38,557 nucleotides of DNA, from positions 1-38,557 of the IMG/VR virus record IMGVR_UViG_3300032157_000371. One strand, 5' to 3'. Positions 7,314 to 11,651 of the stretch are shown here, piece after piece (the first letter of the stretch is position 1; each line of letters opens with the position of its first letter). The position numbers and the translations under genes are program-made. The stretch comes from a virus. The notes under the pieces were generated by a model. The model ran no database searches. It worked only from the letters and a program-made list of their open reading frames with translations, and had not been told where the DNA came from.

Positions 7314-8776
7314 AACCGAACGCCCTTGACCGGGTGATTTCCTGGTTTGATCCGGCTGCCGGCTTCCGCCGGATGCGATTCCGTGAGGCGGAGTCCATTC
7401 GCGCGTCTTATGACGCCGCAAGGACTGGTCGACGGACGGCAAATTGGGCGACTTCCGGCGCTTCGGCCAACTCTGAGATTGCCGCGGCGCAACCACTCTC
7501 TCGAGATCGATCTCGCGATCTGATCCGGAACAACCCGCTCGGGAGTAACGCACAGGGGAAATGGGCTGACTCGATCGTTGGGCCCGGGATTCTTTGCCGA
7601 TGGGAAGATCCCGCTGTCCAGGAGAAGTGGGACGCCTGGACGAAGCGGGCCTCCGCGGATGGACTGCCTCACTTCGAAGCGGTTCAGTACCTAGCCTGCG
7701 AATCGGAATTCGAATCGGGCGAAGTGCTGACTCGGTACCGGTCACGCCGGCGGTCGGATGGCATTTGGCCGCCCTTTCAGATTCAAGTTCTCGAAGCCGA
7801 TCATCTGGACACGGCAAAAACACAGCCGACAGATGCAAATGGCTACATCATTCACGGCGTCGAGTTCAATGCCGTTGGGAAAAGGGTCGCTTACTGGCTT
7901 TTCGAACACCATCCGGGCGATTCCAGTTCCGTAGGTATGCGGGGCTCTGTCGGGAATGCTTCTAAACGAGTGGATGCTGCCGAAATCCGGCACGTTTATA
8001 AGCCGTCCCGTCCCGGCCAGGTTCGCGGTGTTCCACGGTTGGTGTCGACTACGGCGGCGGCGAAGGATACCGCTGACTGGGAGGATGCGGAAATCGTTCG
8101 GAAACGGACGGAAGCCTGTATCGCCGCGGCGGTCACTTCTCCGGAGGGCGACGATTTCACCTTCACGGCCCAAGTGATGGACGCGAATGGGAATCAGGTC
8201 TCGACCTTTGAGCCCGGAATGATTTTGAAGACGAAACCGGGCGAAGAGGTAGTTTGGAACAATCCTGCGTATGCCGGCGGGTATGACGATTACAAAACGA
8301 GTCGGCAGCGCGACTTCGCCGCCGGCGCAAAAATGCCGTTCGAGCTGCTAACAGGGAACTACTCGAAGTCGAACTACAGCAGCTCTCGCATGGGGGTCGT
8401 CGCTTATGAACGGACTGTCGTTTCGACGCAGTGGAATGTGATCATCCCGCTCGTATGCGAAGCAGCTGCAGAAGAGTTCCTTCGGCTCCTTGAGATTTTG
8501 GACGGGCCGATCGCTAATAAGCGGCATGAGTGGAACCCGCCCGCATTCAATTTGTTAGACCGGCTGACGGAAGCAAAGGCGGACGAAGTGGAGCTTCGGA
8601 CCGGTAAGACGAGCTGGCCGCAACTCGTATCGAGAGCCGGTAACGATCCGTCGAAGTTGATCGAACAGATCGAGGAATTTGCAAAACGGCTGAAGAAAGC
8701 GGGCGTTAGCTTCTTCAATGGGCAGGATCTCAACATGGGCAAAAGCCAACAGGACCAACAGCAGGAGGAGCAATGA
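7283..8776 (+). CDS. Portal protein, lambda family
   Basis: 497 residues. The first 130 (FREAESIRASYDAARTGRRT, then LIRNNPLGSNAQGKWADSIV) are typical of lambda gpB-type portals, including the region where conserved Arg and Asn residues start the clip/wing. Later parts (EIRHVYKPSRPGQVRGVPRL, YDDYKTSRQRDFAAGAKMPF) match the family core. It forms the dodecameric DNA channel and binds TerL. The C-terminus is Gln-rich (QQDQQQEEQ). It overlaps gpW upstream and the protease/capsid gene by ATGA. Confidence 0.95.
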   Translation: MSPNTTQQRVKPNALDRVISWFDPAAGFRRMRFREAESIRASYDAARTGRRTANWATSGASANSEIAAAQPLSRDRSRDLIRNNPLGSNAQGKWADSIVGPGILCRWEDPAVQEKWDAWTKRASADGLPHFEAVQYLACESEFESGEVLTRYRSRRRSDGIWPPFQIQVLEADHLDTAKTQPTDANGYIIHGVEFNAVGKRVAYWLFEHHPGDSSSVGMRGSVGNASKRVDAAEIRHVYKPSRPGQVRGVPRLVSTTAAAKDTADWEDAEIVRKRTEACIAAAVTSPEGDDFTFTAQVMDANGNQVSTFEPGMILKTKPGEEVVWNNPAYAGGYDDYKTSRQRDFAAGAKMPFELLTGNYSKSNYSSSRMGVVAYERTVVSTQWNVIIPLVCEAAAEEFLRLLEILDGPIANKRHEWNPPAFNLLDRLTEAKADEVELRTGKTSWPQLVSRAGNDPSKLIEQIEEFAKRLKKAGVSFFNGQDLNMGKSQQDQQQEEQ

Positions 8777-10815
8777 GCCCTTTAGATAAGCTTTTTGCCG
8801 ACAACAAATCCAGCCCGCGCCGGTATGAAATTAAGGCCTCTACGGCCGCGGACGAAACGGAAGTGTTTCTGTACGACGCGATTGGCGGGTATTGGGGTGT
8901 CGATGCGGGCCAGTTCGTTAAGGATTTAAAGGCGATCAAGTCGTCGACAATCCATTTGCGGGTTAACTGTCCGGGTGGAGAAGTTAACGCGGCACGGGCG
9001 ATTGCCACGGCGATCGCTCAGCATCCTTCCAAGATCGTCGCGCACGTCGACGGAGTGGCCGCCTCAGCCGCCTCCTTTCTAATCCTTGCTGCGAAAGAGA
9101 TCGAGGCGACGGCTGGCGCATTCGTGATGGTTCACTCGCCGATGATGCTGACGGTTGGGAATGCCGCCGATCATGAGGCAGCGATCGCGCTCCTCGAAAA
9201 GTACGCTGACGCGATGGTGTCGGACTACATGCGCCGGACCGGCAAGGATGAGGCCACGGTTCGGGGCTGGATGGCGGCGGAAACATGGTTCACCGCTGAG
9301 GAAGCGGTGGAGGCAGGCCTGGTCGATCGCGTGGTGGAAGCGATTGCGGTCAAAAGCCAATGGAATCTTTCGGCGTATAAAAACGCTCCCGTCGCACTTC
9401 GCGCGGCCGAGCTCGGCGCCGTTGCGGTGGAGGTCTCGCCGATAACCGAAGTCCAGGGGTCTGCCCCTGATGACAACCAACCAAAGGAGTGCAACATGCA
9501 CAATCCAAACCCTGTTGATCCTACGGGGCAGAACCCGACCCTCAACGCGGAGGCAATCAAGGCTGAAGCACAGAAGGTCGAGCGCGCCCGTGTTTCCGAA
9601 ATTAGCCGCATTGGCGCAGCAGCGTCTCTGCCGGCCGCAACCATTCAAGCAGCGATTGCCGACGGACAGTCGGTGGAGGCCTTCAAGGATGCCGTCATTG
9701 AGGCGATGTATAAGAACAGTACCAAGGTCGAAACCCGCGTTGGCGCGCCTTCGGCAGAGATCACTCGCGACGAAGTAGAGACTCGCCGGCAGCTGATGAC
9801 CGGCGCCATCCTGAACCGCGTCGACGGCAATGTGTATAAGGTGGAATCGGCAAACGACTTCAAGTTCATGAGCCTTCCGCGCATGGCCGAAGAGTCGCTG
9901 ATTCGCGCTGGCGTGAACACCCGTGGCAAGTCGCCCAACGAAATCGCCGTCCTGGCGCTGCATTCCACCAGCGACTTCCCGATCATCCTGGAGAACAGCC
10001 TTCGGAAGGTTCTCCTAGACGCTTACGGCACTGCCGAACCCACATATCGGAAGTGGGCGAAGAAGTCTCAGGCTACGGATTTCAAGACCATGCGGCGCAT
10101 CCGAAAGGGTGAGATGCCGGTGTTCCTGGAAGTCCCCGAGGGCGGCGAGATCTCGATGGGCACGATGGGCGAAGAGCGCGAATCCTACGCGATCGCCACG
10201 TACGGTCGCGGGATCAGCTTCACCCGCCAGATGCTCATCAACGATGACCTCGGCGCCTTCAACGATATGGCCGGCGCGTTCGGTCTTCAGGCTGCCCGCC
10301 TCGAGAATAAAACCGTGTATGCCATTCTCACGGCGAACGCAGCGATGGCGGACGGAGTAACTCTGTTCCACTCCGATCACGCCAATAGCGGCACTGGCGC
10401 AATCGGGAACACCGGTCTCGATTCGATGTTCGTGGCAATGGCGACACAAAAGGGCATCGATGGTGTCACCGTCCTCAACATCGTTCCGAAGTACCTGATC
10501 GTTCCGCCTGCCAAGCGGATGACGGCGGTTACGGCAATGCGCGAAACGGGTCCGAGCGTAAAAATCTCGGAGCAGAACTGGTTTGCCGGCATGCTTGAAG
10601 TCGTTTCCGACGCCGAGCTGACGGACACGGCCAAGTGGTATGGCGCCGCCGCCACCGGGGACGTCGAGTATTCGCACCTGGCCGGGGCCGAAGGGCCGCA
10701 GTTCATTCGGCAGGAGAACAACGGCGGAGTCCTGGGGGTCACGATGTACGCGTTCCTGGACTTCGGCGCGAAAGCTGTGGGCTGGAAAGGCCTGTACTAC
10801 TCGACTGGCTCCTAA
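8773..10815 (+). CDS. Prohead protease / major capsid fusion protein (ClpP-like S14 plus Mu gpT-like)
   Basis: 680 residues. Residues 25-195 are a ClpP-fold protease: LRVNCPGGEVNAARAIATAI, nucleophile Ser98 (DGVAAS), His121 (VMVHSP) and the TWFTAEEAVEAGLVD block. The ClpP Asp position is Glu170, as I recall is common in phage versions. A linker at 225-245 (APDDNQPKEC) is followed by a helical, scaffold-like segment (246-330). Residues 390-680 are a Mu gpT-like major head subunit (KKSQATDFKTMRRIRKGEMP, then ISMGTMGEERESYAIATYGR). Such fusions are known but uncommon. An internal ribosome site could make the capsid part alone. Start overlaps portal by ATGA. Confidence 0.9.
   Translation: MSPLDKLFADNKSSPRRYEIKASTAADETEVFLYDAIGGYWGVDAGQFVKDLKAIKSSTIHLRVNCPGGEVNAARAIATAIAQHPSKIVAHVDGVAASAASFLILAAKEIEATAGAFVMVHSPMMLTVGNAADHEAAIALLEKYADAMVSDYMRRTGKDEATVRGWMAAETWFTAEEAVEAGLVDRVVEAIAVKSQWNLSAYKNAPVALRAAELGAVAVEVSPITEVQGSAPDDNQPKECNMHNPNPVDPTGQNPTLNAEAIKAEAQKVERARVSEISRIGAAASLPAATIQAAIADGQSVEAFKDAVIEAMYKNSTKVETRVGAPSAEITRDEVETRRQLMTGAILNRVDGNVYKVESANDFKFMSLPRMAEESLIRAGVNTRGKSPNEIAVLALHSTSDFPIILENSLRKVLLDAYGTAEPTYRKWAKKSQATDFKTMRRIRKGEMPVFLEVPEGGEISMGTMGEERESYAIATYGRGISFTRQMLINDDLGAFNDMAGAFGLQAARLENKTVYAILTANAAMADGVTLFHSDHANSGTGAIGNTGLDSMFVAMATQKGIDGVTVLNIVPKYLIVPPAKRMTAVTAMRETGPSVKISEQNWFAGMLEVVSDAELTDTAKWYGAAATGDVEYSHLAGAEGPQFIRQENNGGVLGVTMYAFLDFGAKAVGWKGLYYSTGS
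9485..9498 (+). promoter_or_regulatory. Strong in-frame internal ribosome-binding site and ATG for the capsid part
   Basis: AGGAG (9485-9489) with a six-base spacer precedes an ATG at 9496 that is in the same frame as the protease-capsid fusion (codon 242). This start would give a 439-residue product with the scaffold-like segment and capsid domain but no protease. The site matches the consensus better than those of most genes here. Use of this start is inferred. Confidence 0.65.
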
Positions 10816-10889: not shown

Positions 10890-11651
10890 ATGACCAACAA
10901 AGTACGATCTGGTAATGTCGTTCCAGTCACGGCGCCGTACGCTCTCTCCAGCGGCGATGGATGCCTGGTCGGCTCGCTGTTTGGCGTCGCGATCGCGGAT
11001 TACGCCATCAGCACAGCCGCGGAAATCGATACCGTAGGCGAGTTCACTCTGCCGAAAACGTCTGCTCTCGCCATCTCGGCCGGTGACGTCCTGTACTGGG
11101 ATGACACGGAGAAGGAACTCAACAAAACTTCCACTGGCGTGGCTGTAGCCGTTGCGACGGCCGCTGCCGCAAACCCCAGCTCTACTGTTCAATGCCGTCT
11201 CACCAGCGGCTACAGCGGCGCCGTGGGTGAGACCGTTTTCCGGCAGGCAACCTTCACTATCAGCAACGCCGAGATCAAGGCTCTCCGGGCCGCCCCGAAG
11301 ACGCTTGTGGCGGCGCCAGGTGCAGGTAAGATCCTGGAGTTCATCAGCGCGTTGCTGTACCTGGATTACGGGACGAACGTGTTGACGGAATCGAGCGATA
11401 ACCTCGCCATCCGGTATACAGACGGCTCCGGGGCCATCGTTTCGCAGGCCATCGAATCCGGTGGCTTCATCGACGCCAGCGCTGACACGATTACCAACGC
11501 TCTGCCGAAGATCGACGCTATTGTCGCTGCATCGGCCGGCATCAACAAGGCGCTGGTCTTGCACAACACGGGCGACGGTGAAATCGCTGGCAATGCCGGT
11601 GCTGACACTGTGATCCGCGGCATCATCAACTATCGCGTCCACACGATCTAG
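10890..11651 (+). CDS. DUF2190-like capsid decoration/stabilisation protein
   Basis: 253 residues. Residues 1-110 (MTNKVRSGNVVPVTAPYALS, GDGCLVGSLFGVAIADYAI) match the DUF2190 fold found just after many major capsid genes, where it trims or decorates the shell. Residues 125-253 (TISNAEIKALRAAPKTLVAA onward) form a second beta-rich domain that often accompanies phage surface proteins. AAAGGA precedes the ATG. Placement between capsid and connectors supports the role. Confidence 0.75.
   Translation: MTNKVRSGNVVPVTAPYALSSGDGCLVGSLFGVAIADYAISTAAEIDTVGEFTLPKTSALAISAGDVLYWDDTEKELNKTSTGVAVAVATAAAANPSSTVQCRLTSGYSGAVGETVFRQATFTISNAEIKALRAAPKTLVAAPGAGKILEFISALLYLDYGTNVLTESSDNLAIRYTDGSGAIVSQAIESGGFIDASADTITNALPKIDAIVAASAGINKALVLHNTGDGEIAGNAGADTVIRGIINYRVHTI

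Follow-up and report, generated by a model that had tools for sequence, protein, structure and literature searches.

A 2010 study of Gifsy-2 reportedly described a single gene that encodes a ClpP-like protease, a scaffold-like middle part and a capsid protein. That the tripartite fusion is already known from Gifsy-2 is indicated by the title of the work (doi 10.1016/j.virol.2010.03.041) as cited in PMC3121763 and PMC8538268. One gene for protease, scaffold and major capsid protein (MCP) was proposed for gp5 of the Pseudomonas phages MD8/F10 (PMC8508860), a tripartite fusion was noted in Paracoccus phages (PMC6536676) and capsid-protease fusions were reported for small-genome actinophages (PMC9671004). 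Such a fusion is puzzling with regard to stoichiometry, as a single gene would yield protease and capsid in a 1:1 ratio, whereas only a few protease molecules are used for each shell in other phages.

The window, i.e., the whole stretch of DNA analyzed here, is a virus record of 38,557 bases. The neighbourhood of the fused gene is an ordinary head operon, namely the terminase small and large subunits, the portal, the fused gene, a decoration-like gene and the tape measure. The decoration-like protein (window 10890-11651, 253 aa) matches phrog_122 in its first 105 aa, and its C-terminal half is without a match. Translation of the window revealed that the ORF at 8773-10815 encodes 680 aa uninterrupted by a stop codon. 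Its ATG overlaps the stop codon of the portal gene (ATGA, 8773-8776) and therefore translation of the long form may be coupled to that gene. The fused gene is organized as follows:

8773-10815, plus strand: fused head gene in the order protease, linker, scaffold, capsid; long form, 680 aa (72.8 kDa)
8763-8775, plus strand: Shine-Dalgarno sequence (SD) AGGAGGAG and the ATG from which the long form starts, read from the sequence; SD:anti-SD -9.7 kcal/mol
8860-9342, plus strand: ClpP-type head maturation protease domain, residues ~30-190, from profile matches and triad positions
9406-9543, plus strand: disordered linker holding the internal start, residues 212-257, pLDDT < 50
9535-9822, plus strand: helical scaffold/delta-like region, residues ~255-350, from the predicted structure
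9940-10797, plus strand: HK97-fold major capsid domain, PF25209, residues 390-675

The preliminary description had placed a ClpP-like protease and a gpT-like capsid in one 680-residue frame, and profile searches agreed with this. The protease region matched NF045542 (head maturation protease, ClpP-related) with 159.3 bits, above the cut-off of 120, and also PF00574. S98, H121 and D185 occupy the ClpP triad positions, lie in ClpP-like motifs and are invariant in the clade of the window. The capsid domain matched PF25209 (3e-46) and, more weakly, the Mu gpT family PF10124 (1e-6), and profile comparison attributed it to the JBD30 gpT type (6e-12). Over residues 29-679, the chain matched NF045540 (ClpP-like prohead protease/MCP fusion protein) at 3e-129; the score of 432.6 bits is below the curated cut-off of 475, and the window protein is therefore regarded as a relative outside the named subfamily. 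NF045541 (protease/MCP fusion) and phrog_133 were also matched at length in the same domain order, with scores below the NCBIfam curated cut-offs. An AlphaFold2 model of the long form contained a ClpP fold, disorder at residues 212-257, helices at residues 255-350 and the capsid, and the modelled protease part matched ClpP structures in a fold comparison.

The disordered linker contains a second putative translation start with the following features:

9484-9489, plus strand: internal SD AAGGAG (encodes K238-E239), 6 nt upstream of the ATG
9496-9498, plus strand: internal in-frame ATG, Met242, read from the sequence, inside the disordered linker
9496-10815, plus strand: predicted short form, scaffold/delta-like region and capsid, 439 aa (47.2 kDa)
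9489-9501, plus strand: small hairpin GTGCA-ACA-TGCAC, which includes the internal ATG and is of uncertain function

This is the AGGAG with an in-frame ATG at 9496 that had been noticed at the linker earlier, and no stop codon occurs from 9496 through the end of the capsid domain. The predicted length of 439 residues for the shorter chain also stands, but the product would not be a capsid alone; it would comprise scaffold and capsid, like HK97 gp5. In the predicted structure, the length and helices of the scaffold/delta-like region fit the delta domain of HK97 gp5 (~100 residues), and the short form alone matched HK97-fold shells (JBD30 procapsid, HK97 and encapsulins) in a fold comparison with modest TM-scores. 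The ribosome site had been called stronger than most gene starts, and it was found that the best SD is no stronger in 38 of the 45 candidate genes of the window. An SD as strong as that of 9496 precedes only 29 of 952 window ATGs on both strands; the start of the long form itself is stronger still (SD:anti-SD duplex energy of -9.7 kcal/mol at 8773 versus -8.2 kcal/mol at 9496). The internal site of the window is not locally open (60-nt MFE of -16.1 versus -7.7 at 8773). A sigma-70-like promoter was looked for between the domains and none was found.

The family was collected by a capsid profile from viral contigs, prophages and phages, which resulted in 284 fused loci and 89 representatives at 80% identity. 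Among the 284 fused genes, 70 have a ClpP-type and 214 an S78-type (HK97 gp4-like) protease, the S78 label resting on an HMM seeded from the locus L103 and on both kinds of fusion being represented in NCBIfam. The L103 protease is one that we take to be HK97 gp4-like (S78 type). A boundary site was defined as an in-frame ATG no more than 65 residues after the protease domain with an SD of -5 kcal/mol or lower. The preliminary description had treated absence of the site from homologous fusions as evidence against a second start; the site was present in 81/89 representatives, and in 55/89 when an SD of -6.5 kcal/mol or lower was required. It was absent or weak in 8/89, which have a weak SD only or no ATG; in an earlier set of 77 representatives, the site-poor loci were L101, L128, L137, L148, L151, L153, L175 and L248. 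Enterobacterial ClpP fusions have a weaker internal site (EEFxxM). SD-ATG pairs within the protease region (ETWM) of some enterobacterial fusions were set aside as probably reflecting a conserved protein motif. Four Rhodobacterales-type S78 fusions (L201, L285, L309 and L321) carry two boundary SD-ATG sites ~24-30 residues apart, which possibly correspond to two alternative short forms. Enrichment of permissive second residues after the internal Met was tested in the family and was not significant (p 0.057). The distance from the start to the capsid domain has a median of 118 residues (91-159) in the family, which is close to the size of the delta domain in HK97, given as 102 residues in PMC8508860. 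The predicted internal start characterizes the fused family as a whole and is not peculiar to the window phage.

In the 89 representatives, 94/132 SD pentamers at the boundary had an in-frame ATG behind them at start spacing, versus 11/266 in the capsid and scaffold, and an out-of-frame ATG followed only 4/132 of the boundary pentamers (Fisher p of 8e-47 and 2e-34, respectively), although these counts are not fully independent because the fused relatives share ancestry. The contrast persisted at 60% clustering (46/71 versus 3/136), and in the tails of stand-alone, unfused ClpP proteases, an SD pentamer with an in-frame ATG was found in 2/32. The family RNA is less folded at the site than at the remaining ATGs in these genes (-12.1 versus -17.3), and the RNA at the downstream ATG with the best SD is more folded (-18.7) than at the internal site. 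The position of the motif at a domain boundary would also suit an SD-like sequence that slows ribosomes between two domains and aids folding, with no initiation. However, pausing requires no ATG, while the boundary motifs strongly prefer an in-frame one, and the more open RNA in this region is what is seen at starts, so that this explanation has hardly any credibility.

In synonymous-codon shuffles that kept the protein, the SD became weaker (mean of -7.4 kcal/mol for the real genes versus -5.3 kcal/mol for the shuffled ones, z = -7.9), and 47 strong SD sites were observed in the family versus 22.7 expected. Since the SD is lost on codon shuffling, selection acts on the DNA in addition to the encoded protein; for the window gene by itself, the test was not significant (p = 0.36), the significance being family-wide. 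Across lineages, the SD occurs in all three codon phases (30/11/4), and the surrounding residues are poorly conserved. It could be assumed that only the full-length fusion is made and then cut by the protease, with the internal SD-ATG unused: the frame of the fusion is unbroken, its catalytic positions are preserved and the disordered linker could be cut. But the SD and in-frame ATG are retained at start spacing in these 81 of the 89 lineages despite residue change, the codon choice favouring the SD would be left unexplained, and the protease would be present 1:1 with the capsid; we consider this assumption unlikely. The codon-shuffle, out-of-frame and stand-alone-protease controls all point to a real start, and the two-start reading of the preliminary description is supported.

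The closest relatives of the window show the same pattern. Six IMG/VR relatives with capsids 74-76% identical keep the fusion and AAGGAG-N6-ATG, as does the more distant L343 (65%). This arrangement is present in all four distinct clade members with differing flanking residues and linker length, and the residues at the site vary (KECNM, KEGYM and KEVTM). In the clade alignment, L086 has deletions on both sides of the site, with the SD, spacing and ATG unchanged. A hairpin around the internal ATG occurs at this position in L081, L343 and L086 too, although the stems are not those of the window (GGGC-TATAT-GCCC and GGTCA-CTA-TGACC, compared with GTGCA-ACA-TGCAC). The stem sequences differ and still pair, so both arms of the hairpin have changed together. 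Family-wide, stems of 4+ bp at the site numbered 13 versus 7.4 in permutations (sd 2.2) and stems of 5+ bp 6 versus 1.8 (sd 1.2). A 4-bp stem is also formed at 22% of other ATGs. The start-codon hairpin is therefore weak as a family-wide element and was not retained as one.

The protease of the window has its nearest counterparts (~50%) among stand-alone ClpP proteases from HK97-like cassettes without this capsid, and the closest relatives of its scaffold-capsid part outside the clade are S78-fused genes. BLAST homology between the window and the S78-fused L183 begins at residue 237, at the SD itself, which indicates that proteases were exchanged there. The capsid tree places S78 fusions as the sister group of the window's ClpP clade (100/99 support), and the supported branches force at least 4 changes into or out of the ClpP type. 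The internal site accompanies either fused protease, the ClpP type or the unrelated S78 (HK97 gp4) type. Proteases of two unrelated folds have thus repeatedly been exchanged before the same scaffold-capsid part, with the predicted internal start at the joint. This start would make the protease/scaffold joint a safe place for exchange of the protease module, and it would explain how unrelated proteases can be swapped before the same capsid.

The separate genes of the nearest protease relatives in HK97-like cassettes, and the one split relative, L103, could also indicate that the SD-ATG is a relic from a time when the capsid had its own gene and has merely persisted by inertia since a stop codon was lost. 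Nevertheless, the site is kept with two protease types and with capsids down to ~30% identity, while the neighbouring residues have turned over and indels have accumulated; a neutral relic would have decayed, and this origin is very improbable. In L103 (2481-5044), which is nested among fused genes, the S78-type protease and the capsid are separate genes; a terminator-like hairpin and AAAAAGGAG precede the start of the capsid gene, and an odd hydrophobic N-terminal stretch is present. Stand-alone ClpP genes of HK97-like cassettes (L002 4714-4800, L003, L005, L007, L012 and others) have a terminator-like G+C hairpin and T run at the 3' side, which directly precedes the capsid gene although it lies inside a head operon.

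Our main reading is that one frame gives two nested proteins and that a few long chains carry the protease into a shell of short chains; we assign it a probability of roughly 0.83. Translation from 8773 would produce the 680-aa protease-scaffold-capsid chain, and translation from 9496 the 439-aa scaffold-capsid chain, similar to HK97 gp5. The short chain, required in hundreds of copies, would form the procapsid. The minority long chains, whose scaffold and capsid parts are identical to the short chain, would co-assemble with it by means of these parts, bringing the protease inside, where it would later cut away the scaffold and itself. The sequences show the fused frame, the SD-ATG, its conservation, its position where protease and scaffold join, and the selection acting on it; translation from the internal start, the long:short ratio, co-assembly and processing are what we infer from them. 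As an internal start would yield additional short chains, the problem of the 1:1 ratio would be solved. For annotation, this would mean two products per fused gene, the short one being the main capsid protein, and protease incorporation by co-assembly is a directly testable model.

A comparison with the described tripartite fusions showed that F10, like the window, has an SD-ATG, at aa 220. The Gifsy-2 CDS has one at aa 221, with 29% full-length homology to the window, from which its sequence is far. In the available parts of the tripartite-fusion literature found (e.g., PMC8508860 and PMC6536676), an internal start is not described; the text of PMC8508860, where the tripartite gene of MD8-like phages is proposed, does not contain the terms "internal" and "start codon". 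The names and descriptions shown for NF045540, NF045541 and phrog_133 do not mention an internal start either. The fusion itself is known, and the conserved internal start is apparently new relative to the literature compared, in which Gifsy-2, the main source of doubt about this novelty, is represented by a title.

Nesting as in lambda C/Nu3, with the capsid in the same frame, had been proposed in the preliminary description, and the conserved in-frame SD-ATG after the protease, with no stop before the capsid end, agrees with this. In lambda, an in-frame internal start after the protease leads to a shorter protease-free product, as would be the case here. However, the short product of lambda C/Nu3 is a scaffold only, with the capsid encoded by a separate gene, whereas that of the window would contain scaffold and capsid. 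Mu I/Z likewise has an in-frame internal start after the protease and a shorter product without it. The predicted short form resembles HK97 gp5 in having a helical N-terminal region of ~100 residues followed by the HK97 fold, but the HK97 protease gp4 (S78 type) has its own gene upstream and the window protease is fused. In retroviral Gag/Gag-Pol, the part that builds the shell is common to all chains and only a minority also bear the protease. This is an analogy only, since there the opposite end is extended, by readthrough or frameshift, while in the window the longer chain would arise by start choice. On balance, we lean slightly towards the view that alternative initiation within one fused gene determines the protease:capsid ratio in a large, diverse group of tailed phages, as a prokaryotic counterpart of Gag/Gag-Pol, with the internal start also serving as an exchange joint for ClpP-type and S78-type modules and, in the clade of the window, a small start-codon hairpin that may tune the ratio.
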